Source: Cololabis saira (lineage: Eukaryota; Chordata; Actinopteri; Beloniformes; Belonidae). From it: a stretch of DNA of 64,000 bases. The stretch is from positions 43,798,868 through 43,862,867 of the forward strand of contig NC_084591.1 in NCBI RefSeq assembly GCF_033807715.1, in the 5' to 3' direction. Shown piece after piece: positions 20,566 through 62,546 of the stretch (within the stretch, counting starts at the first letter, position 1; each line of letters begins with the position of its first letter). A program made the translations under genes and the position numbers. A model generated the notes under the pieces. It was not told the DNA's origin, made no database searches, and saw nothing but the letters and a program-made list of their open reading frames with translations.

Positions 20566-20650
20566 AGAAGATTCCTGTTCGTCTCTGAAAGAAGGTCAAG
20601 CAAGTCCATCGGGTTTTCCTCCACAACACGGCTGAGTCTCTGAAACACTG
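20566..20650 (+). other. Non-coding first exon of TRIM gene 1 (3' edge)
   Basis: The sequence CTGAAACACTG followed by GTGAGT is a splice donor at 20651. The same donor exists before TRIM gene 2 (31747/31748). It would join to the acceptor TTTGTTTCCAG at 21004, nine bases before the ATG. The 5' edge is not defined by the sequence. Confidence 0.55.
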
Positions 20651-21013
20651 GTGAGTCCAGAAAAAAACATTTACTGTGTTTCTGTCAGCGGGACGACAAA
20701 ACTTCAACTCAGTTTAGTTTAAATGTTATTCTGGAAAACTCAATCTGATTCTGGTCAAAGAACAGGAACGTTTAGAGGAAAATGATTCACATGAAATTCA
20801 TGTTCATTATTCTGGAGTCGTGACATTAATAATCTAATAATCTAAATTTGTGTTGAGGAAACGTTCCTCCTTTTACTGTCAGACGGGTGTTGTCTCTGAG
20901 GATTCATGACATTCTTTGTTCTGTTTCCTTCTCACTCGTTGTCTTTCTCTTCTTCATTTCATTATTGCAGCTTTGATGTTTCACACTTTAACTTTTGTTT
21001 CCAGAGAACCAAC

Positions 21014-22663
21014 ATGTCTGCTGGCAGCAACCTGAGATCTGCAGATCAGTTCCTGTGCTCCATCTGTCTGGATGTGTTCACTGATCCAGTCACCACACCA
21101 TGTGGACACAACTATTGTAAAACCTGCATTACTCATCACTGGGATGATAATGTTCTCTACAAGTGTCCCTTATGTCAGGAGACCTTCTACACCAGACCTC
21201 AGCTGAAAGTCAACACCTTATTGAGAGAGATGGTTTCTGAGTTCAGACGTGAAGCTCAACAGAAATCCAGCAGCAGCAGCTCAGAGCAACAAGCTGCAGA
21301 ACCAGGAGAAGTTCCCTGTGACGTCTGCACTGGAACCAGACTGAAGGCCCTGAAGTCCTGCTTGGTGTGTCTGGCCTCCTACTGTGAGACTCACCTGGAG
21401 CCTCATCTGACAGCTTCATCACGTCTGAAAAAACATCAGCTGGTGGAGCCTGTGGAGAACCTGGAGGACAGGATTTGTACGAAGCACGATAAACCTCTGG
21501 AGCTGTTCTGTAAGACCGACCAGACATGTGTCTGCTCTCTCTGCCCTGTTTTAGACCACAAGACTCATGAGTTGGTTCCTCTGAGAGAAGAATATGAAGG
21601 AAAGAAGGCAGAGCTGCAGAAGACAGACGCTGAGATTCAGAAGATGATCCAGAAGAGACGACTGAAGATTCAGGAGATCAAAGAGTCTCTGAAGATCAGT
21701 AACGATGCTGCAGACAGAGAGAAAGCAGAAGGTGTTCAGGTCTTCACTGATCTGAAGGAGTCTGTTGAGAGACGTCTGAAGGAGTTCATGAAGGAGATGG
21801 AAGACAAACAGAAAACTGCAGAGAAACAGGCTGAAGACTTCATCAAAGATCTGGAACAGGAAATCTGTGAGCTGAAGAAGAGGAGCTCTGAGGTGGAGCA
21901 GCTCTCACGCTCTGAAGATCACCTGCACCTCCTCCAAAGATTCTCATCCCTGGAAGATGCTCCACCCACCAAGAACTGGACGGAGGTCAGAGTCCATCCA
22001 CCTTCATATGAGGGGACTGTGGTGAGAGCTGTGAACCAGCTGAAGAAGAACCTCAGAGAGAAGATGAAGAAGCTGCTCGCTGAAGTTGAGCTGAGGAGGA
22101 TCCAGCAGTTTGAAGCTGATGTGACTCTTGATCCTGATACGGCACATCCTGGACTCATCCTGTCTGATGATGGAAAACAAGTGTATCTTGGTGATGTGAA
22201 GAAGAATCTTCCAGATAATCCAGAGAGATTCTCTCAATGTCCTTGCGTTTTAGGAAAACAGAGTTTCTCTTCAGGCAGATTTTACTTTGAGGTTCAGGTT
22301 AAAGGAAAGACTGACTGGACTTTAGGAGTGACCAGAGAGTCGGTCAACAGGAAGGGAAACATCACAGTGAGTCCTCAGAATGGTTACTGGACTGTTTGGC
22401 TGAGAAAAGCAAATGAGTACGAAGCTCTTGCAGGTCCTTCAGTCCGTCTCCATCCCAGTTCTCCTCCTGAGAAGTTGGGGGTGTTTGTGGATTATGAGGA
22501 GGGTCTGGTCTCCTTTTATGATGTAGATGCTGCAGCACTTCTCTACTCCTTTACTGGCTGCTCCTTTAGGGAGAAACTCCACCCGTACTTCTGTCCTTGT
22601 AACAATCATGGAGGTAAAAACTCTGCTCCCCTGATCATCTGTCCTGTCAATCAAACTGTCTGA
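21014..22663 (+). CDS. Bloodthirsty-type TRIM E3 ubiquitin ligase, copy 1
   Basis: 549 residues in one coding exon. The start is the ATG following the acceptor at 21004 (AACATGTCTG); upstream in-frame residues are intronic. A RING finger spans residues 15-54 (CSIC, CGHNYC, CPLC). A B-box 1-like CxxC region is near 102-127 and B-box 2 near 155-185 (CTKHDKPLELFC, CPVLDHKTHE). A long charged coiled coil covers about 190-360. A PRY-SPRY (B30.2) domain covers about 367-549, with LDP, WTLGVTRESV, NGYWTVWL and DYEEGLVSFYDV. This is the layout of fish bloodthirsty-related (btr) / TRIM39-like ligases. The RING recruits an E2 and the B30.2 domain selects the target; many family members act in antiviral or inflammatory signalling (family knowledge, substrate unknown). 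It is intact and tandemly duplicated with the gene at 32098. Confidence 0.93.
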   Translation: MSAGSNLRSADQFLCSICLDVFTDPVTTPCGHNYCKTCITHHWDDNVLYKCPLCQETFYTRPQLKVNTLLREMVSEFRREAQQKSSSSSSEQQAAEPGEVPCDVCTGTRLKALKSCLVCLASYCETHLEPHLTASSRLKKHQLVEPVENLEDRICTKHDKPLELFCKTDQTCVCSLCPVLDHKTHELVPLREEYEGKKAELQKTDAEIQKMIQKRRLKIQEIKESLKISNDAADREKAEGVQVFTDLKESVERRLKEFMKEMEDKQKTAEKQAEDFIKDLEQEICELKKRSSEVEQLSRSEDHLHLLQRFSSLEDAPPTKNWTEVRVHPPSYEGTVVRAVNQLKKNLREKMKKLLAEVELRRIQQFEADVTLDPDTAHPGLILSDDGKQVYLGDVKKNLPDNPERFSQCPCVLGKQSFSSGRFYFEVQVKGKTDWTLGVTRESVNRKGNITVSPQNGYWTVWLRKANEYEALAGPSVRLHPSSPPEKLGVFVDYEEGLVSFYDVDAAALLYSFTGCSFREKLHPYFCPCNNHGGKNSAPLIICPVNQTV

Positions 22664-22974
22664 TCTTTAATGTAATGAATCTTAGTCAACTCTGAATGTT
22701 CATTTAAAAGGATTAAAGATTCACTCTGATTGATGGAAACAAATGTTATAGTTCCCTCCAAAGTTCTTTCATCTCATTAAAGTGATCATTTTGTTTGATT
22801 GATCATATCATTGGCGTTTCAAGCTTCTTTTGGTGATACAGCACTGAACCCTAAAATGTAAGAGATTTTTTTATGTTGTATGTTTAATAAGCTAAGGAAA
22901 TGTCAAAACCATATACAGTATATGGTTTAAACGTAATATTTTAACAACAAACTACAGCAGCACCCAACCTGCTA

Positions 22975-22975
<1 letters not shown>

Positions 22976-23026
<51 letters not shown>
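22976..23026. repeat. (GT)n microsatellite
   Basis: About 25 GT units, roughly 300 bp after TRIM gene 1. In the other copy a longer GT array lies about 40 bp after the stop codon, so the two arrays may not be strictly homologous. Confidence 0.95.
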
Positions 23027-23029
<3 letters not shown>

Positions 23030-23059
23030 GTTGACAGTACAAAGAAAGACAGGAGAAGA

Positions 23060-25270
23060 GAGAGGACTTTATTACTATTTTTATTATAATTTTTATATTA
23101 ATGTCACGAGACAGAGAAGGAGCTTGGAGACCACAAATAAGAAACCACCTACTTGTGTGGTGTCAAGGGTAATCCACCATGAATTGTACTTCAATTTGAT
23201 CAAAATCACGCTCTGGTCCAATTATTCTTTGATAATACGTATACGTTTTGTTCTTATAGGTTTCAGTTAAGTTGCATTTTTTTGTCTGTAATGTGTAATG
23301 TGGAGTTCTTTCACCTTTTCTTTTAACATATTCTGAATAATACACTTGAATTTGTTTTGTTACATATTGTTAAATTACCTTTTAAGATTTAGACAAATTA
23401 TTCTTCAGATTTAAACTGGAAAATGGAAATGGATCAATTTACCCCCAGATGCAGATCAACTTACCCCTAAACTGGGGCAAGTTGAGCCACAAGACAACTT
23501 TTCCTTGAGAAGTCATATTTTCATTGCCCGTTGTCATGGAGACGTTATTATCATTTCCATTTAAAATGTACAAAACAGTGAAGTTTATTTTGTCTCGCCG
23601 GCCAGCGAACTCTGATTGCTCAGCACGCCTAAAGTTCTGATCCTAAAATCCTGGATTATATAATTACATTAGTATGTTGTACTTCTACATTTTTCCTGTT
23701 TTTTGTTCCTCCTCATTTTAAAGGAACATTTGAGATGTTCCAGTCAAATATAACATCATGTGATCTAATTGTAACATCTATCTGCAAGTGTGAATGATCC
23801 TACAATATCTGATGATGGAAAGAGTGAAAACTGTTGGATTGTTGAATTGTTTCCTGATAAAGCAGAACTCTGTAATCTGTGTTTGTCTCTTATGTTACAG
23901 TTTTGATTTTGAAAAGCTCAATTTAAAGTTGCTTTTACAGTCAGATAGATAGTTGGTCTTGCAGGGATTAAAACCTGTATAAATATCAACTAATATATAA
24001 ATATAAAAACACACCAGCTCAGGAGAGCAGTATTATATATGTAGATGATATGGGTAAATTAAACAGTATGTATGGATATGAATTAAAAGAAAAAAGTATA
24101 TATGGTATTATAATAGTATATATAGTATAAGGTCATATATGAGGTGTACAACATTATTGACATCTCACCCAGAATGAAGCAGATCCAAGTCGTACAGTGA
24201 GATGTTTTTTATTCTGTTTTCCATTCATGTGTCCTCTGCCATTGTTGTAGGTTTTAAAAAAAATGATTATTGAAAATAACTGCAACAAAAAACAAACATA
24301 GTTATTAAAAATAAAAACATTAATGTACAGTATTCAGGGAGAAATGTCCAATTAAGATTATGACCAAAGCACAAAGGAGTTATAAATGAAGGTTTAATTT
24401 AGCCTCATGGATAGTGTTTGGCAGGGTATTATCTGTGGATCAGTGTGATGCAGGTGATACCCTCTGATTTTGAATTAAATTCTTAGATAAACTAGTTTCA
24501 ACATCTGGGAGCTAATTTGGGGTTAATGGTATTTGGCTGTGAATTATTCCTTGCTATTACAATGATCTCTTTTATTATTTATTTAATTATTATTTTATTG
24601 TATATTATACATTTATTATTTTATGTTTATTAATATCATTCAATGGCCATTCGCCTTTATTATCTCAGTGGCAAACATGCAATGCCCTTAGTCTTCCACT
24701 AGAGGGAAGCTCTTGATCAATTTTTGTTAAATTTGTTTCACTGGCCACCAGAGGGGCCCAGATCAATTCAAATGTAATGCTTTATTTCTCCACCAGAGGT
24801 TAAAGTTAAAAGTTAAAAAGTTAAAATAGAATGGAAAATCTCGACGAGAGGGAGGCAAAGCAAATTTCAATGCAGTAGTTTTATATCTGCAGTAGAGAAT
24901 CTAAGGTTTATCAGCTCAAGGTGAAACTGTGGGGAAATACATCCCAGGAGTCAGAGGAGGAATACGGGAGGCAGATTAGGTGGTTTTCTCAGGATGTTGT
25001 ATCCAGAGATTGGATGCAGGAGAGAAGTGGAAGAGAGCCGAGAGGCCGGACCAACTGGAGCTCCCAGCAAGGCAAGGCCAGGCAGGTTTACTGGTCAAGC
25101 CCATTTCAGTCAGTGAACGTTTGATGTAAAACATTAACATACAAGATTTGTAACCGACTGGGTTTGGGTTTGTTTTTTTTTTTGTTTTATTTACGTTATT
25201 TTTTTTCATTATTTATTTTTCTGTATTTTTTTCCTTTTTTAAATCATTCAGGATTCCCTCCATCATCTGT
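23060..25270. repeat. Downstream part of duplication unit A
   Basis: Nearly identical to about 34135-36360. Within it, 24000-25165 is a shared flank that reappears in full or part at 35037, 37228, 43800 (inverted), 48565 and 51797 (inverted). A 67-codon frame at 24921-25124 is broken by TAG in another copy. No protein-coding function is supported. Confidence 0.8.
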
Positions 25271-25276
25271 TGACCT

Positions 25277-25384
25277 TCAGCGTCTGCGACGGACAACTCT
25301 CCTGCGTCTGCGGGCGACGCGGGTCCTACGGACTCTCCGGCGCCTGCGGACGGGGCGAGAGCTCTGTCTGCGTCTGCGTGGCAT
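25277..25384 (-). CDS. Protamine, copy 1
   Basis: A 35-codon uninterrupted frame with ATG at 25384 and TGA at 25277. The protein starts MPRRRRQSSRPVRRRRR and ends RRRRRVVRRRR; 23 of 35 residues are arginine. It has no Lys and no Cys. This is the layout of teleost protamines: salmine starts with the same MPRRRR and SRPVRRRRR blocks, and the tuna, perch and mullet types share the 34-residue mature length and RRVVRRRR or similar end. Protamines replace histones and compact DNA in sperm nuclei. The gene is intronless, as in other fish. A TATA box lies 38 bp upstream of the ATG, and AATAAA about 60 bp past the stop (25212-25217). It faces TRIM gene 1 tail to tail. Codon use mixes CGC/AGA/AGG/CGT/CGG, which argues against a simple repeat artefact. 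Confidence 0.93.
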   Translation of the reverse strand: MPRRRRQSSRPVRRRRRVRRTRVARRRRRVVRRRR

Positions 25385-25422
25385 TGTCAAAAGATGTGAT
25401 GAGAACTAGTAAGAAGGAGTTC

Positions 25423-25430
25423 TATTTATA
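25423..25430 (-). promoter_or_regulatory. TATA box of protamine copy 1
   Basis: TATAAATA on the minus strand, 38 bp before the ATG. This would give a 5' leader of roughly 10-15 nt, as short as known for fish protamine mRNAs. Identical in all four copies. Confidence 0.8.
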
Positions 25431-25467
25431 AACTCTGTTACAAGCTTGTTGATGGAATGGAATGTTA

Positions 25468-25555
25468 ATGGAATTGATGACATCATATATTCTTTAATGG
25501 AATTAATGACATCATAACTTGATGACATATCTTCTTCAATGGAATTGATGTCCAT
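25468..25555 (-). promoter_or_regulatory. CRE-like repeat block, protamine copy 1 (short)
   Basis: Two TGATGTCA motifs (minus strand) and one degenerate third, embedded in ATTCCATT and GAAGAAGATAT spacers. This is the shortest version of the 45-bp minisatellite seen in the other copies. TGATGTCA is one base away from the CREB/CREM site TGACGTCA. Confidence 0.6.
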
Positions 25556-25649
25556 ATTATTCAGGGTTTTTTGGTTTAGTTTTTACTTCATAACAGTGAT
25601 GATGTCATAGAAAAAAAAGAAAGCAGACTTTCAATTACTTTAAATTACT

Positions 25650-26292
25650 GTACCAACCCAAGATTTTGAAGGAACAGGCTTGGAGTGTTTCCAGACGGGT
25701 GTAGTTTATTGAAGATTTGTGCATAGCACCAAAAACGTTGAACACCGTGAAAACTGTGACACAAAATGACACAGGTAAATTAGCCCACAACAGGCACACT
25801 CTATAAACAACAACTGCATATTAGCAGGCAATACAAATTACAGAATATATGAAATACTATACAAATCAATACAGTATACAAATGAATCGTACCTCGCTCC
25901 GCTGATCAAGGGTGCTAAGGGGAATCCTTGGAAAGCTGCCACCACTACTGTTGCAAAAAACTAGTTAGCCATGACTTTTGCTGGCTACACAAACAAAAAA
26001 AACAGTCTTCTTTTAAATTGAAAATTGCCGATAATTCTCTCTCAAAAACGGCACAAAAAGGCACACAATAACACTTTTAACCAATAATGAGTGGGGTTAA
26101 ACAAATGAAACACTCATTAACAGTGGAAAGAAGATGTTAAATATAAATTATTATAAGCTTTCTTTCTTGCTGCTATCTTCTTCGAGGTCTCATCTTTCTC
26201 TGAGCTTGACCTGAAGCGTGCACGAGGGAGTTACAAGGCACGGGAAATCTAAAGCGACAGTGCTCAATTAACACAACTCACGGCCACTTACA
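25650..26292 (-). repeat. BEL/Pao 3' LTR
   Basis: On the minus strand it starts TGTAAGTGGCCGTGAG directly after a purine tract (GAGTGGTGGGAG) and ends GGGTTGGTACA. It carries TTCAATAAAC near the end. The TG...CA ends are as expected. Flanking ATTAC at 25645-25649 may be one half of the target duplication. Confidence 0.7.
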
Positions 26293-26424
26293 CTCCCACC
26301 ACTCATGTTATACAGAATGAAAACATGGATCTTCCTGACTGAATGGGTATACATGAGTCTTATGCCTACGTGATTTGCAGGTAAGTACTTCATGCAAGAT
26401 TTAAGGTATAGACTACCAAACTTA

Positions 26425-26688
26425 TCATTCACTCTCAAGGAGGAGAACTAGTTTCTGAATGGGCCTTTCTAAGATCAAAGGTTTAGTTGAATGGTTTTGT
26501 TTTCCTAATGTCTTGTCTCCTACTAACACTCTAACACGACGCACAAGTCCATCACTCTCTTCTGTGGTTCCAACCACTCGACCAAGATGCCATTGGTTTC
26601 TTGGGGTGTCTTCCTTTATGATGACCAGGTCATCCACCTTAAGGTTGCGTTGAGTCGAGTGCCACTTCTGCCGTGTGGAGATGTTCAT
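26425..26688 (-). pseudogene. BEL/Pao integrase C-terminal tail
   Basis: Contains QKWHSTQRNLKVDDLVIIKE and HLGRVVGTTEESDGLVRRVR, the family's conserved domain after the integrase core. Separated from the core by a frame change at about 26687. Confidence 0.8.
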
Positions 26689-27140
26689 GAGATAATCTTG
26701 AGTGTGGCGTTCAGGACGTTACGAACAGTACGGATCTGGCGCTCCCAGACGCCACCAGCGTGACTTGCGGAGGGAGCGTTGAAGACAAACTCGCATTGCT
26801 TTTCTGCGAAGAAGCTCTCGAGTGTCTCAGCATCATGTTGTTTCAGTGCTTTCTTGAACTCATTACTGGCTCCCACGAAATTGGTTCCTTGATCGCAATG
26901 GAGTTGGTGAACGGCTCCACGGAGGCTGATGAAGCATCTTAGGGCGTTAATAAAAGCATCCGTTGACAAATCCTCAAGCATCTCGAGGTGCACAGCTCGA
27001 GAGGAGAGGCAGGTGAAGATTAAGCCATATCGCTTTTGCTCTTTACGGGCTTTCTTGGTGATGAATGGGCCGAAGCAATCATTTCCGCAGTAGGTGAAGG
27101 GAGCAGAGGCTTCTGTGCGCTCTTTCGGAAGCTCAGCCAT
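26685..27140 (-). pseudogene. BEL/Pao integrase core
   Basis: A retroviral-type integrase fold. The first acidic site lies in the GNDCFGPF block, the second Asp in HCDQGTNFVGA and the Glu in GGVWERQIRTVRN, so all three DDE positions remain. It would insert element cDNA, but it is not in frame with the flanking domains. Confidence 0.82.
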
Positions 27141-27161
27141 GCGCTGTTCTTCTGATGGCCG

Positions 27162-28121
27162 TCAAAGTCTTCTGCATCTCACACAGCCGTGAATCAACTT
27201 AGCAACTGATTTGCTTCCACCAAGGACCCAAAACCCATTGGCTCGAAGTTCTGTTACAGTTTGACTTTGACCTTGGTGACAGATCTTGTCATGGTAATGA
27301 GTCAGGATCAACTTGGTGATGTGTCCTTCTTTGGGTAGAATCACGGGGTGCTTGACTTGTAGACATAGGGACGACTGTTTCAGTCTTCCGCCGACACGAA
27401 GTATTCCCTCCTCTAGGATGGGATCCAGGCGAAACAGAGTACTGGAGTTTGGAAGACTTTCTCCCTTCTGAAGTGTCTTCATTTCTTGGGAGAACGCTTC
27501 TTCTTGTACAAGCTGGATCACTACTACATCTGCTGTCTCACGTTCTTCCAGAGTCACACTGGGACATTTTTGCTTGGACTTCAGTCTCTTCATTTTCGCG
27601 ACGACATTCAGGAGTCTTGACCAAGAGGAGAATCGACTCAGGTTGGTAAGTATGTTTGGTTGGGGAGGTTCAACTTTGGTTGCAAACGCCTGCATTGACT
27701 TGACTTCAGGATCGCCGACGAGCAATTCTGGTTGGAGGTCAGATGCTGCATGTATTTCCGATTTCCACAGGAATTCAGGTCCCGTTAACCAGTTCGTTGA
27801 GGAGATTTCTGTTGCGAGGAGGCCTCTTGAGGCGTGGTCAGCTGGGTTTTTGGTTGTGTCTATGTAGTGCCATTGGCTGGGGCTTGTGTATTCTCTGATC
27901 ATTTGGACACGATTGGCAACAAAGACATGAAACCTTCTTGCTTCATTACTGATGTAAGCTAGGACCACTTGGGAGTCAGTCCAGAAAAACTCTCCATCAA
28001 TCTTCATCTCAAGGTCGTTTCTTAGCATGACACTTGATCTCGCAGCGACCACCGCTGCTGAGAGTTCGAGTCTTGGAATGCTGGTAAGTTTCGTGGGTGC
28101 AACTCTGGCTTTTGCAATCAC
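27162..28121 (-). pseudogene. BEL/Pao RNase H and integrase zinc-binding region
   Basis: 319 codons open. The RNase H-like part has WTDSQVVLAYI, FVANRVQMIRE and NPADHASRG. The C-terminal part has HYHDKICHQGQSQT and GCVRCRRL, an HHCC-type zinc-binding domain. Typical order for a BEL/Pao Pol. Confidence 0.85.
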
Positions 28122-28226
28122 GAGACTGCAGTAGACTTTGCCATCTTCGTTCTTGCTTCTCAGATATGAACAGGAGCCATAGCCCGAAAAGTGATGGAGT
28201 TCCCTTCTAACAGTTTTACCAAAGTC

Positions 28227-28505
28227 TCATGGTTGGTAACATCTTGGTATGGAAACTTCCTTCAGCATTTGGAGACCCTCTTCCCATTTCTCCCACCGTG
28301 GGCTTAAGTCTTCAGGAAGTGGGTCATCCCATGCGATGCCTCTGCGACAGAGCTCCTGAAGTATGCATTTTCCAGTTAGGATGAATGGTGCCACAAATCC
28401 AACTGGATCGTACAGGGAAGCGATGACTGATAGGATCCCGCGGCGCGTGGAGGATTTCATCTGTAGGTTCACATCAAAGTTGAAATTGTCATTTTCGAGT
28501 GTCAA
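28227..28505 (-). pseudogene. BEL/Pao reverse-transcriptase C-terminal region
   Basis: KSSTRRGILSVIASLYDPVG and GWDDPLP-like AWDDPLPEDL are conserved between the reverse transcriptase and RNase H in this superfamily. Truncated upstream at about 28505 by the DIRS-like sequence. Confidence 0.82.
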
Positions 28506-29504
28506 GCTGTACTGAGCCCGTCAGGGCTACCATCTTGAACGCCCGTGCGCCTTCCACCCGCCTCCAGTATGAGTGCAAGTGGAGGAGATTCTCTGCCAGG
28601 TGTGCAGACAGGGCAGAGGACCCTGTGCTTTGCCCTGTGGCCACGATCCTGGAGTTCCTTCAGTCCCTCCTGGATGGTGGCCGTGCTCAGTCCACCTTAA
28701 GGGTGTACGTGGCGGCCATTTCATCACGACATGCCCTGGTTGAGAATGCCACCGGCTGGTTTCTCTCTTTCTCAGGGGGGCTCTGAGGGTGCGCCCCCCG
28801 AGGACCCCAAGGGTCCCAGTGTGGGACCTGTCCATGGTGCTAGGTGCCCTTCTTCTCCACCTTTTGAGCCCTCGGCCCAGGTGGACCTGAAGTGGCTTTC
28901 TATGAAGACAGCTTTCCTCCTCGCTATGACATCGGCAAAGCGAGTCGGTGAGTTACATGGTCTGTCAGTCAGCGGGTCCTGCCTGAGGTGGAACCCAGAT
29001 GGCTCAGGGGCTACGTTGTGGCCGAACGTGGCGTTCCTGCCCAAGGTCCTGCCACACACTCATACTAATCGGCCTATCCAGCTGGCCCTGTTCAACCCCC
29101 AGCCTGCGGAAAGTGGGCCGAGCCCTTTGTGCCCCGTACGGGCCCTCGCTGCTTATGTTGATGCTACCGTGCCTGTGCGACGGTCGGAGCAACTTTTTAT
29201 CTGCCATGGTGGCCCTAACAGAGGTCGTGCTGTTTCTAGACAGCGCCTGTCCCACTGGGTGGTGGACACCGTCAAGCACGCCTACAGGGCCAGTGGCTGC
29301 CCCTTGCCAATGGGAGTGAGGTGCCACTCGACCGGAAGCGTCTCAGCTTCTTTGGCTGCCCTGAAGGGGGTGCCTCTGGACATCTGCACCGCGGCTTCGT
29401 GGACGTCGCCGGACACGTTCTCCAGATTCTACAGAATCAACGTCGCCACTCCCCAACCGTTGGGCGTGGTTCTGCTCCCAGGTCCTTCTGCTCCTGGTCA
29501 GTGA
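28499..29504 (+). pseudogene. Tyrosine recombinase of DIRS-like element
   Basis: Two overlapping frames (28499-28786 and 28731-29504) encode an N-terminal SAM-like part (STRLQYECKWRRF, STLRVYVAAIS) and a catalytic part. AFLLAMTSAKRVGEL holds the first catalytic Arg. RCHSTGSVSAS holds the His, but Gly stands where the second catalytic Arg (HSTRS in relatives) is expected. FSRFYRINV holds the Tyr. Frame break plus the Arg-to-Gly change make it inactive. In active elements this enzyme inserts circular cDNA without an integrase. Confidence 0.78.
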
Positions 29505-29871
29505 GGTAGGTGACCGGGATTCTTCATGACGTTGTTGGTATTTGTCATCCAGTGCTTACAGCACCGCCTGGCGGTCAGTAGGGACGAAATAGAACGAAAG
29601 TTACGACTGTAATTACGGTTCTATGAGTCCCGGATGACCGCCAGGCCTGCCGGTCACTCAGAATCCTCGTGCTCTCGCGAGAAGATTCTAGGAACCGATC
29701 CCTTGCCGACGCCAGAAGTTATACCCTTCCGGGGGTCATGCAGGGGTCAGGGGTGACGTGACATTGTTGTTATTTGTACTCGACATGCGCATGCGCGAGT
29801 GCTTACAGCACCGCCTGGCGGTCAGTAGGGGACTCATAGAGCCGTAGTTACAGTCGTAATTTTCGTTTTAG
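28499..29871 (+). mobile_element. DIRS-like tyrosine-recombinase retrotransposon, 3' fragment
   Basis: The recombinase frames are followed by the unusual ends of DIRS-type elements. A 32-bp direct repeat (GTGCTTACAGCACCGCCTGG ...) occurs at 29552 and 29799. The stretch around 29583-29630 (GAAAGTTACGACTGTAATTA) is the inverted complement of about 29828-29870. No reverse transcriptase remains. Confidence 0.75.
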
Positions 29872-29879
29872 ACATAGAG

Positions 29880-30262
29880 CACAAATCTTTTTGTTGACAT
29901 TACTACCTGGACGCTGCCCAAATACAGTTTATAGTCAGAGATGGTTCAAGAATCCTAAATCTGTAGACCCGACCCAGCTACTGGATGATGTTTACTTCCT
30001 GCTGACACTTTTGCATTACTAAAATACAACCAGAAAGCTTCCTGATTAGATCCTAAAAACAGCCATGAAGAGTTGAAATTCCAGCACAAACAGACATGTC
30101 GTCGAACAGCTGAAGGTGAAGATTTTAATGTTTATCTACAAAAAGATGAACTAATGTGAGTTAGTAAAGAGTTTTCAGGAGGATGAAGATGGCAACGACC
30201 GATGACATCAGGTAAAACAGGCATAATGAAAGTCATGTGACAGTAATCAGGTGGAAAGATCA
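29880..30262. other. No gene seen
   Basis: Unique-looking, AT-rich sequence between the DIRS-like fragment and the TIR element. Nothing recognised. Confidence 0.3.
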
Positions 30263-31556
30263 GGGGCCTCATCTATAAAGCTTGCTTGCGCAGAAAAAGC
30301 GCCTGAAAGTTGCGGAAGCCGCCTTCTACGCAAATCCTCGGATCTAAAAAGAAAAAACTAACCGAAAAATCTGCGTATCTTTACGGCAACTAGGACCCTC
30401 CCGTAAGAATTTACTTAAGACACGGGGAACTGGCGAGGCAGGCTGTGAGGTGGTGAAATGAAGCCAGATTCATGTCATACTCTTAATAATGTCATCACAT
30501 ATCACAACATATGTCAGGCTTAAAATAATAAAATAATAAAATAAAGTAATATAGCGCTGATCGTGTCCGTCTGTGTGTGAAGCTTGGCTGTCAGTCAGGA
30601 CTCTGCTGCTGCTGCTGCAGCCTCTTCTTCACCCACCGCTTTAGGACAGAACAAATGAGGGGCTGCGTTTATGGAGCCCCACGGAGCCCCTCATTTCTTC
30701 CCTAAAGGGACACAGATTTTTTTTCATATATATGAGTTTTACGCGCGCGTGAAACCTTTACGTGCTGCTTGTATATGGTGCCTAAATTAGGGTCCCGCGT
30801 TAAAACGACGCAGAGCCTACGGCGTAGGGTACGCGGCGGCGCGCACCTACGGCGTAGGCTCTGCGTCGGTGACGCAGAACCATAAACCCGCCCTGAGCAG
30901 CTCTGAGGGGAGACGGGAGAGGAGGAGGGGTAACGGGGGGTGAAGCGGGGCTGCGGGGCCGTTTTCGTATCGCTTTCATACAGTGTCTTGATAATTTGCA
31001 ATTTAAGGCTGATCCTACCATTAGTTTTTAAACTGTAAAAAGTAAGGGGAAAAAAAAACATGGTTTTGAAAAGACGGGGGGACGTGTGTCCCCCCTGTTG
31101 CGCCGGGGAACTCACGGCGTTTAGCGCAGCAACGGCCTGCTGCCACTCACTCGCTTTATTTTATTGTATACTATTTATATACTTATTCTAACTTTTACTG
31201 TGACCACCAAATAATGTGGTTTTCCTGTCCTCCACATCATCTACAGCATCTAGGTCTCCGTGAAAGTCAGTGTCACGGTGGCTGCTACTTCTCATTCATT
31301 CTGACGCCAAACCATGGATCTGCGCCAAACAGGCTGCAGAAAGCCACTGCGCATGCTCAGCAGGCTCATCCATATGCATTTCTGGGCGTGTAAAGGGGCG
31401 GATTCAGCTACGCAACCTTCCAGCTGGACTGCGTGGAAGTCTGCGTGCACATGGTTTTATTGATCCGGATTTTTTTTTGCGCACGGCATTTTCGGCTTTT
31501 GAGCGTACGTGCACTTTTAGTATGAATCCTACGCAGTCCATTTTAAATGAGGCCCC
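30263..31556. mobile_element. GGGGCCTCAT-ended TIR element
   Basis: Starts GGGGCCTCATCTATAAA and ends TTTAAATGAGGCCCC. A CAG on both sides could be a 3-bp target duplication, which would suit a PIF/Harbinger-like element. No transposase is recognisable. It contains a palindromic insert at 30803-30890 (CGCAGAGCCTACGGCGTAGG and its complement), a fold-back repeat also found in part at about 61077-61163. Confidence 0.65.
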
Positions 31557-31659
31557 AGAACTGTAGGAGGAGCAGCAGAACTGGAAATACAGGAAAACTT
31601 CAAGTCACATGGTTGAGTGAATCAGAAGGTTTGTCAGAGCGACAGAAGAGCTGCAGCAG

Positions 31660-31747
31660 AGACTAAACCTGTCTGATTCTGGGTTTCTGAGTAAATTCAA
31701 ACTTCAGAGTTTGTTCTCAACAACTCAGCAAAGTCTCTGAAACACTG
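31660..31747 (+). other. Non-coding first exon of TRIM gene 2 (3' edge)
   Basis: Ends CTCTGAAACACTG followed by GTGAGT (donor at 31748), the same junction as TRIM gene 1. Sequence further upstream differs between the two genes. Confidence 0.5.
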
Positions 31748-32097
31748 GTGAGTACAGAAGAAAACATTTACTGTGTTTCTGTCAGCGGGACGACAAAACT
31801 TCAACTCTGTTTACTAAATGTTATTCTGGAAAACTCAAACTGACTCTGGTCAAAGAACAGGAACGTTTAGAGGAAAATGATTCACATGGAAAAGTTAATT
31901 ATTGTGGAGTCGTGACATTAATAATCTAAACTTGTGTTGAGGAAACGTTCCTTCTTTTACTGTCAGACTGGTGTTGTCTCTGAGGATTCATGACATTCTT
32001 TGTTCTGTTTCCTTCTCTCTTGTTGTTTTTCTCTTCTTCATTTTATTATTGCAGCTTTGATGTTTCACACTTTCACTTTTGTTTCCAGAGAACCAAC

Positions 32098-33741
32098 ATG
32101 TCTGCTGGCAGCAACCTGAGATCTGCAGATCAGTTCCTGTGCTCCATCTGTCTGGACGTGTTCACTGATCCAGTCACCACACCATGTGGACACAACTTCT
32201 GTAAAACCTGCATCACTCATCACTGGGATGGTAATGTTCCCTACAAGTGTCCCATATGTCAGGAGACCTTCTACACCAGACCTCAGCTGAAAGTCAACAC
32301 CTTCATCAGAGAGATGGTTTCTGAGTTCAGACGTGAAGCTGAACAGAAATCCAGCAGCAGCAGCTCAGAGCAACAAGCTGCAGAACCAGGAGAAGTTCCC
32401 TGTGACGTCTGCACTGGAACCAGACTGAAGGCCCTGAAGTCCTGCTTGGTGTGTCTGGCCTCCTACTGCGAGACTCACCTGGAGCCTCATCTGACAGCTG
32501 CACGTCTGAAAAGACATCAGCTGGTGGAGCCTGTGGAGAACCTGGAGGACAGGATTTGTACGAACCACGATAAACCTCTGGAGCTGTTCTGTAAGACCGA
32601 CCAGACATGTGTCTGCATGCTCTGCCCTGTTTTAGACCACAAGAATCATGAGTTTGTTCCTCTGAGAAAAGAATATGAAGGAAAGAAGGCAGAGCTGCAG
32701 AAGACAGACGCTGAGATTCAGCAGATGATCCAGAAGAGACGACTGAAGATTCAGGAGATCAAAGAGTCTCTGAAGATCAGTGACGATGCTGCAGACAGAG
32801 AGAAAGCAGCAGGTGTTCAGGTCTTCACTGATCTGAAGGAGTCTGTTGAGAGAAGTCTGAAGGAGTTCATGAAGGAGATGGAAGACAAACAGAAAACTGC
32901 AGAGAAACAGGCTGAAGACTTCATCAAAGATCTGGAACAGGAAATCTGTGAGCTGAAGAAGAGGAGCTCTGAGGTGGAGCAGCTCTCACGCTCTGAAGAT
33001 CAGCTCCACCTCCTCCAAAGATTCTCATCCCTGAAAGATGCTCCACCCACCAAGAACTGGACAGAGGTCAGAGTCCATCCACCTTCATATGAGGGGACTG
33101 TGGTGAGAGCTGTGGACCAGCTGGAGAAGAACCTCAGAGAGAAGATGAAGAAGCTGTTTGAAGTTGAGCTGAGGAGGATCCAGCAGTTTGAAGCTGATGT
33201 GACTCTTGATCCTGATACAGCACATCCTGTACTCATCCTGTCTGATGATGGAAAACAAGTCTATCATGGAGATGTGGAGAAGAATCTTCCAGATGATCCA
33301 GAGAGATTCTCTAAATATGTTATTGTTTTAGGAAAACAGAGTTTCTCTTCAGGCAGATTTTACTTTGAGGTTCGGGTTAAAGGAAAGACTCGCTGGGCTG
33401 TAGGAGTGGCCAGAGAGTCGATCAACAGGAAGGAAAACACCCCACTGAGACCTCAGAATGGTTACTGGACTGTTTGGCTGAGAAAAACAAATGAGTACGA
33501 AGCTCTTGCAGGTCCTCCAGTCCTTCTCCATCCCAGTTCTCCTCCTGAGAAGGTGGGGGTGTTTGTGGATTATGAGGAGGGTCTGGTCTCCTTTCATGAT
33601 GTAGATGCTGCAGCACTTCTCTACTCCTTTACTGGCTGCTCCTTCAGGGAGAAACTCCACCCGTACTTCTGTCCTTGTCTCAATGATGGAGGTAAAAACT
33701 CTGCTCCTCTGATCATCTGTCCTGTCAATCAAACTGTCTGA
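32098..33741 (+). CDS. Bloodthirsty-type TRIM E3 ubiquitin ligase, copy 2
   Basis: 547 residues in a single coding exon, with the same acceptor and AACATG start context as copy 1 and the same domain order: RING (CSIC, CGHNFC, CPIC), CxxC B-box 1-like region, B-box 2 (CTNHDKPLELFC), coiled coil, PRY-SPRY. It differs from copy 1 by two one-codon losses (SSRLKK to ARLKR; LLAEVEL to LFEVEL) and scattered substitutions. The changes cluster in the B30.2 target-binding surface (for example WTLGVTRESV versus WAVGVARESI, and the loop after the PRY motif). That is the part that usually diversifies under selection in TRIM duplicates. Intact. Followed by a long GT array and, convergently, protamine copy 2. 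Confidence 0.93.
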   Translation: MSAGSNLRSADQFLCSICLDVFTDPVTTPCGHNFCKTCITHHWDGNVPYKCPICQETFYTRPQLKVNTFIREMVSEFRREAEQKSSSSSSEQQAAEPGEVPCDVCTGTRLKALKSCLVCLASYCETHLEPHLTAARLKRHQLVEPVENLEDRICTNHDKPLELFCKTDQTCVCMLCPVLDHKNHEFVPLRKEYEGKKAELQKTDAEIQQMIQKRRLKIQEIKESLKISDDAADREKAAGVQVFTDLKESVERSLKEFMKEMEDKQKTAEKQAEDFIKDLEQEICELKKRSSEVEQLSRSEDQLHLLQRFSSLKDAPPTKNWTEVRVHPPSYEGTVVRAVDQLEKNLREKMKKLFEVELRRIQQFEADVTLDPDTAHPVLILSDDGKQVYHGDVEKNLPDDPERFSKYVIVLGKQSFSSGRFYFEVRVKGKTRWAVGVARESINRKENTPLRPQNGYWTVWLRKTNEYEALAGPPVLLHPSSPPEKVGVFVDYEEGLVSFHDVDAAALLYSFTGCSFREKLHPYFCPCLNDGGKNSAPLIICPVNQTV

Positions 33742-33779
33742 TCTTTAATGTAATGAATCTTAGTCAACTCTGAATGTTC

Positions 33780-33923
<144 letters not shown>

Positions 33924-34134
33924 AGGCCTTATTATGGACATACAGAGGTTTTTTAGAAAAAAAGATCCAGGTTCAGGTAGGAGTGTATGATCACATGATG
34001 TGACTTAATTTCTCATTGCAAACAAATATTCAATTAGAATGATGTAATTTGGATCAATTTATATCATTTATTGGATATAAATGATTCAATATTTTATATA
34101 GATTATTATATTAATATTACTATTTAATAGAGCA

Positions 34135-45799: not shown

Positions 45800-45839
45800 A
45801 ATGAAGCAGATCTCTTCTAAGACTGATTTCTTTCTGATT

Positions 45840-46805
45840 ATCTCTTAAAATTGATCAGATTTGTTTGGAACTGTGACCCAAATCCGATTTTTTGCTCATA
45901 TGTGACTCAGATCCGATTTGTTTATGACAGTGTGAACAGCACAAGTCACATGGAATCTGATCTTTTCAAATCAGATTCAGGTCGCTTCCATATGTGGTTC
46001 TAAATCGGATACAGGTCTGATGTTTTGCAATGCGACCTCAGTGTGAACAGCCAGGTCGGAATTAATGCGACTTTGACGTCACACGCAGAGCCCCGAGCCG
46101 AGGGGGAGAGACACGGGAGACGGCGGGGTCCCTCCGGGCCGCCTCCGCCTCTCCTCCTCCCCTCCCCACCGCTCACCTCTTTTTCGCCTATGACCTCAGA
46201 TCAGACGAGACAACCTGCTGAATTTAAGCATATTACTAAATAAAGAAGCTAAGGATTCAAATCAGCGAAGCGGTCGTGGTCGCATAACCTGCCAGTTTTA
46301 CAACGAGCTGGACCATGTGTTAGGTGATAAACCCAGCTGAATGCCGGAGAGCAGAGCTGACACTCCGGGGAGCGGAGCTAGAGCCCTACTATAGCGGGAC
46401 TGTTTTCTTCATCCCGCTCCCGCTGCATTTCTGACCATTACCGCCCGCACCCGCAACGTGTGTTCCACTCCCGCCCGCGCCCGCAAAACTCTGAGAATTC
46501 ATGCCCGCATAATGATAGAGATGCAAGAGAAACGTCCTTGACAAATCTATCTGATTTAATGTTAACATGATAATTGTGGAGCTTGATGGATAATTGGCAG
46601 TTCATAGGCACCTGTTGGATGCAAATCCATTATTGTCATCATCACACGCCTCTGCGCATAGGGGTCAGTTCAGGGCCGCAATGCGTTCACACTCGAGTCG
46701 GATATAGGACACATTTTAAAAGATAATGTGAACAGCCACACAAAAAAATCGGATATGGGAAAAAATCGGAATTGAGCATTAAGGACTGCAGTGTGAACGT
46801 AGCCC
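45840..46805. mobile_element. Repeat with ATCCGATT motifs carrying an rDNA piece
   Basis: The left part (45860-46080) and right part (46680-46805) share repeated AATCCGATTT/AATCGGAT and TGTGAACAGC motifs in both orientations. This suggests one fold-back type transposon. The middle holds the 28S fragment. Exact termini and target duplication were not found. Confidence 0.45.
46090..46290 (+). pseudogene. ITS2/28S rRNA 5' fragment
   Basis: At 46190-46238 the sequence ACCTCAGATCAGACGAGACA followed by CTGCTGAATTTAAGCATATT matches the start of teleost 28S rRNA. It is preceded by a pyrimidine/GC-rich stretch like the end of ITS2. After about 50 bp the match decays (AAATAAAGAAGCTAAGGATT where AGCGGAGGAAAAGAAACTAA is expected). 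A broken rDNA copy, not a working gene. Confidence 0.8.
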
Positions 46806-47200
46806 TTGAGTTACATGCACAGTCTCCCAAACCAAGTAGAGACCTTTTTAAGTGAGGTCAAGCTTGGAAAGTAAGTGACTGTCAGACACACCACGTAAAG
46901 AAATACACATTTGGTCAAGAAGAATTGGAGGAGTACCCCACCTTGTGGCACGAGTGAAGAACAGCAAAGCATTAAAGTGACTAAAAGGAGAAGAACCAGA
47001 CATTACCTCCCTCTCAAGCAGTCCACATCTCTTAGAAGAGCTTTAATGTGCGAATTAACTTTGGGTAAGAAACATTCAATGTGCCTTTCTTTTTTTTAAG
47101 CTACATGTCATTTTTCCATTTCACCACCAGTTAAACCACTAGTTAAACCATGAATGAATGAGACATCTATCATCTTTTTCTCATCCAAAGACAGATGAGT
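46310..47200. other. No gene seen
   Basis: Right end of the ATCCGATT repeat, then unassigned sequence up to the tRNA-Thr gene. Confidence 0.3.
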
Positions 47201-47204
47201 TTAG

Positions 47205-47278
47205 AGGCTCTGCTGGGATTTGAACCGAGGATCTCCTGTTTACTAGACAGGTGCTTTGACCAACTAAGCCACAGGGCC
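47205..47278 (-). tRNA. tRNA-Thr(AGT)
   Basis: The minus strand reads GGCCCTGTGGCTTAGTTGGT, anticodon AGT in TGTCTAGTAAACA, T loop GGTTCAAATCC and end CAGAGCCT. Acceptor GGCCCTG/CAGAGCC has one mismatch and the T stem one. Otherwise this is the standard eukaryotic tRNA-Thr. Activity uncertain. Confidence 0.75.
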
Positions 47279-47371
47279 TCCACGACCTCTCACTTACCTC
47301 GTCTCAGACATCAAAACAGTAAGACCTTTAGAGGTGTGACATGCTGGAATGAGAAACAGAAGCCATTGGTG

Positions 47372-47444
47372 GACCACACGTCCTAAAGGACAAGGCATCT
47401 GACTTTGGATAAGAAGGTTGAGAGTTTTAGTCCCTCTGTGGTTA
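47372..47444 (+). pseudogene. tRNA-Arg pseudogene
   Basis: GACCACACGTCCTAAAGGAC then AAGGCATCTGACTTTGGAT follows tRNA-Arg(TCG), but the anticodon position reads TTG and the B box is damaged (GAGTTTTAGTCCC). Unlikely to be charged or transcribed. Confidence 0.65.
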
Positions 47445-47705
47445 AAGAGACTTGAGACAGTAAGTTCTAGTGTCCTACCTCACATTCACTCTTTACAGGT
47501 CACTTCAGTTTAGCTACCGTCTTATATACCTGCTACACATATTTACGTACTGGAAGGTCATGTTAGTCAATAATGGGACTAAGATCAGGGTTTGGGCTTG
47601 TTTTTTGTTTTTTTTTCACGTTATTTTTTTTTCATAATTTATTTTTCTGTATTTTTTCCTTTTTTAAATCATTCATTCAGGATTCCCTCCATCATCTGTT
47701 GACCT

Positions 47706-47813
47706 TCAGCGTCTGCGTCGGACAACTCTCCTGCGTCTGCGGGCGACGCGGGTCCTACGGACTCTCCGGCGCCTGCGGACGGGGCGAGAGCTCTGTCTGC
47801 GTCTGCGTGGCAT
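47706..47813 (-). CDS. Protamine, copy 4
   Basis: 35 codons, ATG at 47813, TGA at 47706. The predicted protein is the same as copies 1 and 2; the only change seen is a silent CGT to CGA at codon 32. TATA and CRE-like array are intact. AATAAA-like sequence follows within about 70 bp of the stop. It sits in the second 4.2-kb block, about 11 kb from copy 2. Confidence 0.93.
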   Translation of the reverse strand: MPRRRRQSSRPVRRRRRVRRTRVARRRRRVVRRRR

Positions 47814-47851
47814 TGTCAAAAGATGTGATGAGAACTAGTAAGAAGGAGTTC

Positions 47852-47859
47852 TATTTATA
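47852..47859 (-). promoter_or_regulatory. TATA box of protamine copy 4
   Basis: TATAAATA on the minus strand, 38 bp from the ATG. Confidence 0.8.
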
Positions 47860-47898
47860 AACTCTGTTACAAGCTTGTTGATGGAATGGAATGGTTCA

Positions 47899-48075
47899 TG
47901 GAATTGATGACATCATATATTCTTCAATGGAATTGATGACATCATAACTTGATGACATCATATCTTCTTCAATGGAATTAATGACATCATAACTTGATGA
48001 CATCATATCTTCTTCAATGGAATTGATGACATCATAACTTGATGACATCATATATTCTTTAATGGAATTAATGAC
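47899..48075 (-). promoter_or_regulatory. CRE-like 45-bp minisatellite, protamine copy 4
   Basis: Seven TGATGTCA motifs in four units, same spacing as copy 2. Confidence 0.75.
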
Positions 48076-49790
48076 CATATTATTTGGGGTTTTTGGTTTA
48101 GTTTTTTCTTCATAACAGTGATGGTGTCATAGAAAAAAAAGAAAGCAGACTTTTAATTACTTTAAATTACAAAATAGTGAATAAGAGAATGATGACTGTA
48201 ATAAAACACATCTTACAGGGTTTTTAGCTGTGATTTCACCTGATAAGTCTGGAAACCGCCGCAGACAACAGTGATGTCACAGTCATGTATAGATCATTGA
48301 TGTGTACAGTCATCTGACAATGATGGCAGGATGAAAACGTCCAATCATGTGCTAACAGTGGAATGATGATCTTCAGCAGTTTCTATTCTGGCTCAGAGGC
48401 CAGGGCTTTATGCTCTTATACACTTTCTAAACCCACGCTGACATTTGTGGAAATGCCTGTAAAACCCTTCGTGAAGCTTCCTTAAAACAAGTCCAGAAAA
48501 AGCCATTAAAGGTAAAACAGAGACTTGCTTGGGTAAATGAAATCAGACTTAACTCTAGCAGTTAAATATAAAAACACACCAGCTCAGGAGAGCAGTATTA
48601 TATATGTAGTGGATATGGGTAAATTAAACAGTATGTATGGATATGAATTAAAAGAAAAAAGTATATATGGTATTATAATAGTATATATAGTATAAGGTCA
48701 TATATGAGGTGTACAACATTATTGACATCTCACCCAGAATGAAGCAGATCCAAGTCGTACAGTGAGATGTTTTTTATTCTGTTTTCCATTCATGTGTCCT
48801 CTGACATTGTTGTAGGTTTTTAAAAATGATTATTGAAAATAACTGCAACAAAAAACAAACATAGTTAATAAAAATAAAAACATTAATGTACAGTATCCAG
48901 GGAGAAGTGTCCAATTAAGATTATAACCAAAGCACAAAGGAGTTATAAATGAAGGTTTACTTTAGCCTCATCAATAGTGTTTGGCAGGGTATTATCTGTG
49001 GATCAGTGTGATGCAGGTGATACCCTCTGATTTTGAATGTAATTCTTAGATAAACTAGTTTCAACATCTGGGAGCTAATTTGGGGTCAATGGTATTTGGC
49101 TGTGAATTATTCCTTGCTATTACAATTATCTGTTTTATTATGTATTTAATTATTATTTTATTGTATATTATACATTTCTTATTTTATGTTTATTAATATC
49201 ATTCTGAATGGTCCCTGGTCCTTTGGTATTTAGTTGTGATGTTACATTCATTCAATGGGATCCCTGGCCATTCACCTTTATTATCTCAGTGTCAAACATG
49301 CAATGCCCTTAGTCTTCCACTAGAGGGAAGCTCTTGATCCATTTTTGTTACATTTGTTTCACTGGCCACCAGAGGGGCCCAGATCAATTCAAATGTAATG
49401 CTTTATTTCTCCACCAGAGGTTAAAGTTAAAAGTTAAAAATTTAAAATAGAATCTCGACGAGAGGGAGGCAAAGCAAATTTCAATGCAGTAGTTTTATAT
49501 CTGCACTAGAGAATCTAAGGTTTATCAGCTCAAGGTGAAACTGTGGGGAAATACATCCCAGGAGTCAGAGGAGGAATACGGGAGGCAGATTAGGTGGTTT
49601 TCTCAGGATGTTGTATCCAGAGATTGGATGCAGGAGAGAAGTGGAAGAGAGCCGAGAGGCCGGACCAACTGGAGCTCCCAGCAAGGCAAGGCCAGGCAGG
49701 TTTACTGGTCAAGCCCATTTCAGTCAGTGAACGTTTGATGTAAAACATTGACATACAAGGTTTGTAACCGACTGAGATCAGGATTTGGTT

Positions 49791-51797
49791 AGGAACTAAA
49801 ATCAATGAAACCAAACATTTAAAGCATTGTTGTTTGTTTTTTTTGTTTTTGTTTTTTTTTTTTACACAAAAACAGATCCTTAAAACTGAAAAATAAGGCC
49901 TGAAATATTGATACTTTGCTATTGATCCGTCCATCCTCATAACTTAGTAATTCTACAGGTAACTTTCAATATCAAGAAATGACATTAAGTATAACACCAA
50001 GCTGGAACAAATCCAGAATAATATCTCAGTCTTAAGATTCATGTGATTCTTCTACCTAACACTCCCAATTCATATCAATAATATATCTGGATATCAATAT
50101 TTCCCCCAGGGTGCCAGAGTTTTTCAATCATAACTTCATGCCCCCTACTTTAGAAAAAAACAAGATGATGTTACATGCTGGACTAACCTTTCACCCGCAA
50201 CAATTAGACAAAGAACAACAGTTAAAATGCACAAACAAGACTGACTTTCCTGGGAAACTAATTCACAGCTGTCTACGTATGAATGCTGCAGAAGGTTATT
50301 ATCACAGAGCAAAGAAATTGCTAAGAAAACATTTTGAAATTCAGTAACTTATTGCAGTCACACTCATGAATAACGATCTATAATGACCCTCAATCAGAAG
50401 TGAAGATTATGAAAACTCTGATCTCTACTTTCAAGTGACCCATAAAAAAAGCACACAGTTAAAGGAGTTAAACAGAAAGACACATCTTCCTGTGATGCCT
50501 TGGGCAGTTATTAGCAGTAAATACTTCTGAACAAAAGCATGCAGGTGGCAAATATTCACGTCAAATAATGACATATATGTGCCAATTATGTAACAATGAT
50601 ATACACTACAAAGGTTTTAAGTCAGCGCTTCCAACCTAAAATCACCAAACTAATCTGTCCACAATAACACATTTCATCTTCCACCTGCAAACCACTGCAG
50701 CCGAAGCTAAACAAGTGGCTCTTATGGGGGAAACAATACTAAATAATAATTACAAGATTTAATTCATGTAAAATTTAAATCATATTTTAAATGACTTTAT
50801 AAACAAAGGAAAAATATATATCCAGCCGCTGTTGTTAAATCTACCAGTTGCAGTAATTATGCCATGTACTTTTTTAAATGACTATTGACAAAAAACAAGA
50901 AAAGAAACAAAAAAAAAAAGCTAATTTGACAGAACTTTTACATAAAACTCAAACACAGGGAGACGGACTGATGTTGCGCTGGACAAACCACCAAATACCA
51001 GCAAATAACCAAAAGAAACACGACCAACCTCAATGAGAACTGTTTCCACGACATCCTTAGTGAGAAGATACCAAGCTGAAGGTGAATAACTAACTGACTC
51101 GGTCCAGAGGAATATTTACAGATAGATATACTGCTGGTGACGTCATAAAGGATCAAAGGAGGCAAGAATTCCACCGCCATATCAACCTACGTCATATCAA
51201 ACCTACGTCATATTAGAGACGCCCCACTTCACTCCCACATGTTCACCGGGGGGTTGTTGTCACATTGTGAGTGTCTAAAATAAGAGGCTGTGAACGGGTG
51301 AATAGGAAAAAGACTAAATCGCTTTGCAGAGCCTATAAGTGGCTGAACTAAAGAAATAAACTATAGGAGCGCCATCCATTTATTTTAAGGAGTAACTCGG
51401 TCGTCAAAGGACAGCATACGGATGTTTGTGTTGTTCAGTTATGATGAAACAAACACAAACGTGACAGTACACTCGGTAAGTGCGTATAGAAGACAGTTGT
51501 GAAGCCGCAGCTGCCGCTTACGACCATACCGCCATGAACCAGCAGAGGGCGCTGTTGCTACGTTTGGGAACATGTGCACATTCATCCTCGTTTGCAGCAA
51601 ATCAGCTCCAGCTTCAGACGCGTAGCGTTCAAATGCTCTTTCATGGAGCCTTGGAACGTCATCAAAGAATGTGACGTCTTTGATGACGTCACGAAGAATA
51701 GTGGAAGAGGAAGCACACGTAATAGCACACATTAGAGTGAAGATGTATTTCTTTTCTTGTTATTATAAACAACACCAGAAAACCAGACACACACAGC
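49791..51797. repeat. 2-kb segment X, second copy
   Basis: Near-identical to 38466-40445, including the gag-like frame (50111-50347), both CRE palindromes and the minus-strand frames (50938-51180, 51439-51732). Confidence 0.85.

Positions 51798-62515: not shown

Positions 62516-62546
<31 letters not shown>

Follow-up and report, generated by a model that had tools for sequence, protein, structure and literature searches.

Protamines bind DNA through blocks of arginine, replace histones in spermatids and condense the sperm genome, and teleost protamine genes are characteristically intronless, with a TATA box and a polyadenylation signal. A close described system is the salmonid protamine family, which comprises about 15-20 dispersed copies with flanks resembling long terminal repeats (LTRs); work on trout in the 1980s reportedly led to the proposal of a retroviral, LTR-flanked protamine gene with LTR-like direct repeats around it. 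Here we analyse protamine genes in 64,000 nucleotides of Cololabis saira DNA (the window, positions 43798868-43862867 of contig C5 in a 1.146-Gb assembly) and find that a 'cluster of four' read there from the sequence alone is a corner of a larger family of about 95 places. It is very probable, in our view, that these are protamine genes of the working type in a recently and massively amplified family, with clusters that grew by duplication and a sub-lineage that spread as a TG-bounded unit. In both families the protamine genes are multicopy, lack introns and have TATA and AATAAA signals, but the saira family differs in having 95 places, in the extent of its clusters (as much as 823 kb) and in its (TG)n-bounded units. 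That fish species have several protamine genes is known in general (PMC7126135). Among insects, the Mst77Y array of Drosophila melanogaster holds 18 Y-linked copies (PMC10120018), and other amplified sperm nuclear protein genes in Drosophila reach nearly 50 copies (PMC9917458). Like the saira family, Mst77Y and the other amplified Drosophila genes are lineage-specific amplifications of sperm chromatin protein genes; the saira family has more copies, on several chromosomes, which mostly encode the same intact protein. In the open-licence literature we found neither a protamine family this large nor protamine units with TG boundaries described, a weak indication of novelty given that subscription journals lie mostly outside it.

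The sequence-only reading had placed four 35-codon frames in the window, and each of them indeed consists of 35 residues and a stop:

25277..25384, minus strand: protamine coding sequence (CDS), copy 1, 35 amino acids
36369..36476, minus strand: protamine CDS, copy 2, 35 amino acids, protein identical to copy 1
43588..43695, plus strand: protamine CDS, copy 3, 35 amino acids, Arg28 to Thr
47706..47813, minus strand: protamine CDS, copy 4, 35 amino acids, protein identical to copy 1

The protein common to copies 1, 2 and 4 is MPRRRRQSSRPVRRRRRVRRTRVARRRRRVVRRRR. These are the sole window frames that run from ATG to stop over 25-81 residues with at least 50% arginine, and no such frame arose in 100 base-shuffled windows. 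Aligned with the chum salmon protamine (PMC8398848), the one known protamine compared, the window peptide is identical at 27 of 35 positions, a score that 10,000 composition-preserving shuffles never reached. The two proteins share the start MPRRRR.SSRPVRRRRR and an architecture of arginine blocks with few neutral residues between them; the saira peptide is two residues longer (35 against 33), has valine in its spacers and ends in RRVVRRRR, where the chum salmon protein ends in RRGGRRRR. Its 22 arginines in 35 residues (Met included), a fraction of 0.63, and its length both fall within the range of fish protamines, for which 34 sequences of about 35 residues or fewer give an arginine plus lysine fraction of 0.562-0.704 (PMC7126135). 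The peptide found no match in Pfam or among PDB sequences, although either library may be without fish protamines. On the strength of the alignment and composition we take the proposed protamine identity as established by sequence; the peptide probably also resembles tuna- or bass-type protamines.

The scale of the family had been misjudged, the four genes being 4 of 11 copies in 144 kb of C5 and the genome holding at least 95 places. These came from a search of the whole assembly for the opening 42 bases of the CDS, allowing up to three mismatches (83 of the 95 are exact), a pattern whose reversed control matched nowhere in the genome, and they lie on seven chromosome-sized contigs:

Protamine places per contig: C11, 54; C1, 16; C24, 12; C5, 10 (the window cluster); C10, 1; C16, 1; C23, 1

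On C11, 52 places fall within 823 kb at 45.05-45.87 Mb, with five copies at a spacing of ~4.2 kb at 45.39-45.41 Mb, and the other two are at 22.3 Mb. We read 57 copies through the CDS, comprising those at 56 of the 95 places and one on C5 that the pattern had missed. The exact protein is encoded by 40 of them and a missense form in a 35-residue frame by 13, so that the 35-residue frame is kept in 53 of the 57; the other four are altered by one stop, one frameshift and two in-frame deletions. The missense variants include Arg28Thr at 43588 and Ser8Thr on C11. Where stretches were read whole (144 kb on C5, 120 kb on C1), a CDS search gave 11 + 12 = 23 copies, of which 21 keep the frame, and the 11 C5 copies span 97 kb. 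Short-frame cut-offs could easily overlook a family of around 100 near-identical protamine copies.

An intronless frame, a TATA box and a polyadenylation signal are present in all four window copies. A common distance of the TATA box had been claimed for the four, and holds for three, in which TATAAATA lies 46 bases before the ATG; in copy 3 the leader is 3 bases shorter and the distance is 43 bases. AATAAA follows the stop in every copy, as had been noted, and starts 58-63 bases beyond it. The window coordinates of both motifs below are derived from these offsets, and the limits of the short repeat stretch of copy 1 were set by eye from an alignment:

25423..25430, minus strand: TATAAATA of copy 1, 46 bases before ATG
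36515..36522, minus strand: TATAAATA of copy 2, 46 bases before ATG
43545..43552, plus strand: TATAAATA of copy 3, 43 bases before ATG
47852..47859, minus strand: TATAAATA of copy 4, 46 bases before ATG
25475..25554, minus strand: short stretch of repeats resembling the cAMP response element (CRE), with one full TGATGTCATCA, upstream of copy 1
36567..36738, minus strand: tandem array upstream of copy 2, 3.8 units of 45 bp, with TGATGTCATCA
43332..43500, plus strand: tandem array upstream of copy 3, 3.8 units of 45 bp
47904..48075, minus strand: tandem array upstream of copy 4, 3.8 units of 45 bp
25212..25217, minus strand: AATAAA after copy 1
36305..36310, minus strand: AATAAA after copy 2
43759..43764, plus strand: AATAAA after copy 3
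47638..47643, minus strand: AATAAA after copy 4

The 45-bp repeat upstream of the TATA box in copies 2-4, of which copy 1 has a short form, carries the palindrome TGATGTCATCA, which occurs 15 times in the window against 0.08 expected. It is one base off the CREM/CRE consensus TGACGTCA (PMC10454534), and the exact TGACGTCA is found near 3 of the 57 copies read. In the 53 copies scored for promoter motifs, over 420 bases upstream or less where less was read, TATAAATA precedes 48, and the CRE-like motifs number 1-12 per copy in their 11-base form and 2-12 in their 9-base form. The genes are thus short and intronless, and each combines a TATA promoter and CRE-like sites of the activator type with a polyadenylation signal. 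Their most likely function is high-dose protamine production in spermatids. CREM-type factors would act there on the CRE-like array to give a high-dose output of one protamine, presumably of advantage by its dosage, and the protein would then replace histones and condense the sperm DNA. Two length variants produced by in-frame deletion, at C1:49168059 and C5:43921200, encode proteins of 23 and 33 residues, respectively, and retain the TATA box and the CRE-like repeats.

The 'dispersed, partly inverted' arrangement described for the window is correct, and is accounted for by segmental duplication, the protamine copies sitting in duplicated DNA that is 92-98% alike:

20619..25550: duplicated block with a TRIM gene and copy 1, 93-95% alike to 31716-36646
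31716..36646: second block, with a TRIM gene and copy 2
36253..40462: segment of 4.2 kb that holds copy 2, 97.1% alike to 47577-51797
47577..51797: segment of 4.2 kb that holds copy 4
42977..43941: duplicate of 0.97 kb in inverted orientation that holds copy 3, 96.8% alike to 36129-37094

The TRIM blocks align from 20619-22704 to 31716-33782 (94.7%) and from 23053-25550 to 34130-36646 (92.9%), with a short unaligned stretch between, and a 1.2-kb repeat flanks copy 2 on both sides (35039-36273 and 37226-38464). Segmental duplicates are seen both in the window and on C1. The TRIM-type genes co-duplicated with copies 1 and 2 lie at 20900-22663 and 31984-33741, both on the plus strand; the first, when scanned, has RING, B-box, coiled-coil and PRY-SPRY regions, and TRIM copies at 95% are also found at C5:43.897 Mb and C1:49.145 Mb.

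Relations among the copies were assessed in the 43 with a canonical 3' untranslated region (3'UTR), the C23 copy included. Over the promoter-gene-3' stretch, mean distances are 3.1% within C1, 3.5% within C5 and 2.2% within C11, and 3.1% between C1 and C11, 3.5% between C5 and C1 and 3.4% between C5 and C11, so that distances within and between these chromosomes are alike. In 29 of 42 cases, where 14.8 would be expected, a copy has its nearest neighbour on its own chromosome, so that copies are homogenised locally and have also moved or been exchanged from one chromosome to another. The main clusters, on C5, on C1 and at 45 Mb of C11, grew by segmental and tandem duplication, the duplicated units being several kb long, and copies were exchanged or moved among the chromosomes as well. 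The C23 copy is an outlier, about 10% from the other canonical copies, and may mark an older or founder locus. This diverged copy (within C23:30346700-30350700) ends in RFRR, and it is accompanied by what remains of other copies and by part of a promoter that holds TGACGTCA, the exact CRE.

Eleven copies, on C10, C16 and C24 and at C11:22.3 Mb, have a TG-type 3' end, in which a short stretch leads into (TG)n, and a twelfth copy of the same unit (C24:15194518) has the canonical 3'UTR first. The right end lies at (TG)n in all 12. The left end, AAGCCAAACAACG... or one base off, stands directly against (TG)n or (TGCG)n in 9 of the 12, these being the copies in which a left end was read (C16, one of the two at C11:22.3 Mb and seven on C24; seven places in all); on C10 the stretch read stops short of the left end and the left part matches further out. 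Mostly about 1.9 kb long, the unit contains promoter and gene with TG repeats on both sides. A full unit begins on the left with about 340 bp unmatched in the C5 and C1 stretches, followed by a 131-bp piece of canonical upstream sequence, an interspersed repeat of ~830 bp, the CRE-like array, the TATA box and the CDS; the units at C24:7.18 Mb and C24:13.47 Mb are internally shortened. At single sites the DNA outside the TG tracts is unrelated, and tandem units or parts of units occur at C11:22.3 Mb, C24:7.18 Mb and C24:15.19 Mb. The ~830-bp repeat is also present at many protamine-free places on other contigs (40 scored of 10,590 first-look candidates for the whole query), whereas the left part is matched, among the 40 scored places, solely at or beside protamine copies. 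An insert that is genome-wide next to a left part that is protamine-linked suggests that the insertion-bearing copies most likely descend from one protamine locus.

At C24 15.19 Mb four copies lie at a spacing of ~1.9 kb, the first at C24:15188791 and the others carrying the insertion. Three of the four have lost the 3'UTR into (TG)n at different points, and one retains the 3'UTR with AATAAA and, after it, some 450 bp more ahead of TTAGATGTGCTG(TG)n, with which the C10 and C16 units also end. Seen together with these shared ends, the complete C24 copy suggests, most simply, that the short units are deletion forms of a complete one. We put forward, tentatively but as a plausible reading, that the coding protamine gene and its promoter array are the body of a unit running from (TG)n to (TG)n, which forms tandem arrays, inserts at TG tracts on several chromosomes and spreads like a satellite or mobile element. 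A sub-lineage, mostly with one interspersed-repeat insertion in its promoter, would have become such a (TG)n-ended unit and then reached C24, C16, the second place on C11 and, in all probability, C10. The simplest route would be that TG tracts recombined or were repaired with one another, in linear form or through circular DNA. It should be noted that the unit ends in (TG)n, where a target duplication would be invisible.

Several points weigh against this account of working genes carried in part by a common unit. The copy at C11:22339372 lacks the left part, so that the unit is not uniform. That at C24:15188791 lacks both the left part and the promoter insertion and joins a canonical promoter to a TG 3' end, which either disfavours one uniform unit or points to recombination within the array. 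Movement into TG tracts is itself a step that we infer. As to sampling, 39 of the 95 places were left unread (4 on C1, 31 on C11 and 4 on C24), and 34 of the 57 read copies were chosen by likeness to the gene or because they adjoined such picks, which biases the sample towards intact frames. The exact protein is encoded by 7 of the 11 TG-type copies, while 2 carry missense changes and the remaining 2 are broken; all lack AATAAA in the first 150 bases after the stop, some having one further on, and a stop or frameshift is present in 2 of the 11 against 0 of the 46 others (Fisher p 0.03). In the canonical copies distinct changes number 4 per 30.3 synonymous sites and 9 per 74.7 nonsynonymous sites, an about equal density by which selection at the protein level is not demonstrated, and homogenisation, or recent spread plus conversion, could also keep the CDS alike.

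The explanation that draws most on these points is that the majority of copies are bystanders in a gene-bearing satellite or segmental repeat, few of them expressed, and that the likeness of their CDS comes from recent spread and gene conversion and not from a need for dosage. Synonymous sites changed as little as others, distances of 2.2-3.5% within and between C1, C5 and C11, and the state of the TG-type copies all fit it. On the other hand, frames are intact in 53 of 57 copies, the TATA box and CRE-like repeats are retained in most, and in the same canonical copies the CDS (pi 0.0086, 13 of 108 columns variable) is less variable than the stretch before the TATA box (-95..-50; pi 0.031, 17 of 49) and the 3'UTR (pi 0.035, 16 of 61), with Fisher p of 0.002 and 0.03, respectively, for columns that are not independent. 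We therefore regard bystander status for most copies as possible but rather unlikely.

A transposable element could instead have captured a protamine gene and carried it as cargo by transposition. The common left end and TG right end at seven read places on three contigs speak for such an element, and the interspersed repeat, whole or partial, lies within 11 of the 12 unit copies. The unit, however, ends in TG tracts and not in the ends of that repeat, which is found elsewhere without protamine while the left part, among the scored places, was matched only at or beside protamine copies; the right junctions vary between copies; the longest stop-to-stop frame in the upstream part of the unit is 124 amino acids (a family search was not part of this), and no terminal repeat was noticed by eye. 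Transposition of a captured gene thus appears improbable. The interspersed repeat itself was rejected as the carrier, as it occurs at many protamine-free places and does not lie at the unit ends.

Genetic conflict, in which extra protamine copies would act as a transmission driver or answer one, is argued by analogy with Drosophila, where amplified sperm nuclear protein genes have been linked to sex-chromosome conflict (PMC9917458) and the 18 Y-linked Mst77Y copies are dominant negative (PMC10120018). In saira, by contrast, 40 of the 57 read copies encode the same protein and the copies are on several contigs, and we consider this origin quite unlikely. That the frames are low-complexity arginine-rich sequence without protamine ancestry, as the missing match in Pfam and PDB sequences might be taken to suggest, can be dismissed, since the likeness to chum salmon protamine far exceeds what composition gives, a promoter and 3'UTR are common to the copies, and tens of copies keep an open frame.

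Protamines determine the tightness with which the paternal genome is packaged. With a family of ~100 copies, questions of dosage, homogenisation and conflict in sperm packaging would become open to test in a vertebrate. The family would also be a clear example of how a protein gene can spread from chromosome to chromosome in a microsatellite-bounded unit, and its stages may have run in order from the outlying C23 copy through the canonical clusters to TG-bounded units with and without the polyadenylation signal.

The remaining features of the window are neighbours of the protamine cluster. To its left are tubulin exons at 12499-14103 on the plus strand, probably of alpha type, with tubulin domains in 12499-13056; no second tubulin copy is present in the C5 and C1 stretches read. 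Between copies 1 and 2 are probable retroelement remains (26685-28226, minus strand), including an integrase-core match slightly below the Pfam cut-off at 26685-27161. Three tRNA genes (Val, Ser and Thr) and a fourth, weaker tRNA match occupy 45212-47444 between copies 3 and 4, adjoined by a (TGCG)47 repeat at 45610-45799. To the right, pieces of a TNP-like transposase (Pfam TNP-like domains) extend over 55847-59927, with a reverse-transcriptase fragment on the opposite strand at 58040-59026, and an ATC-type microsatellite of 866 bp (62517-63382) lies at the right edge of the window.

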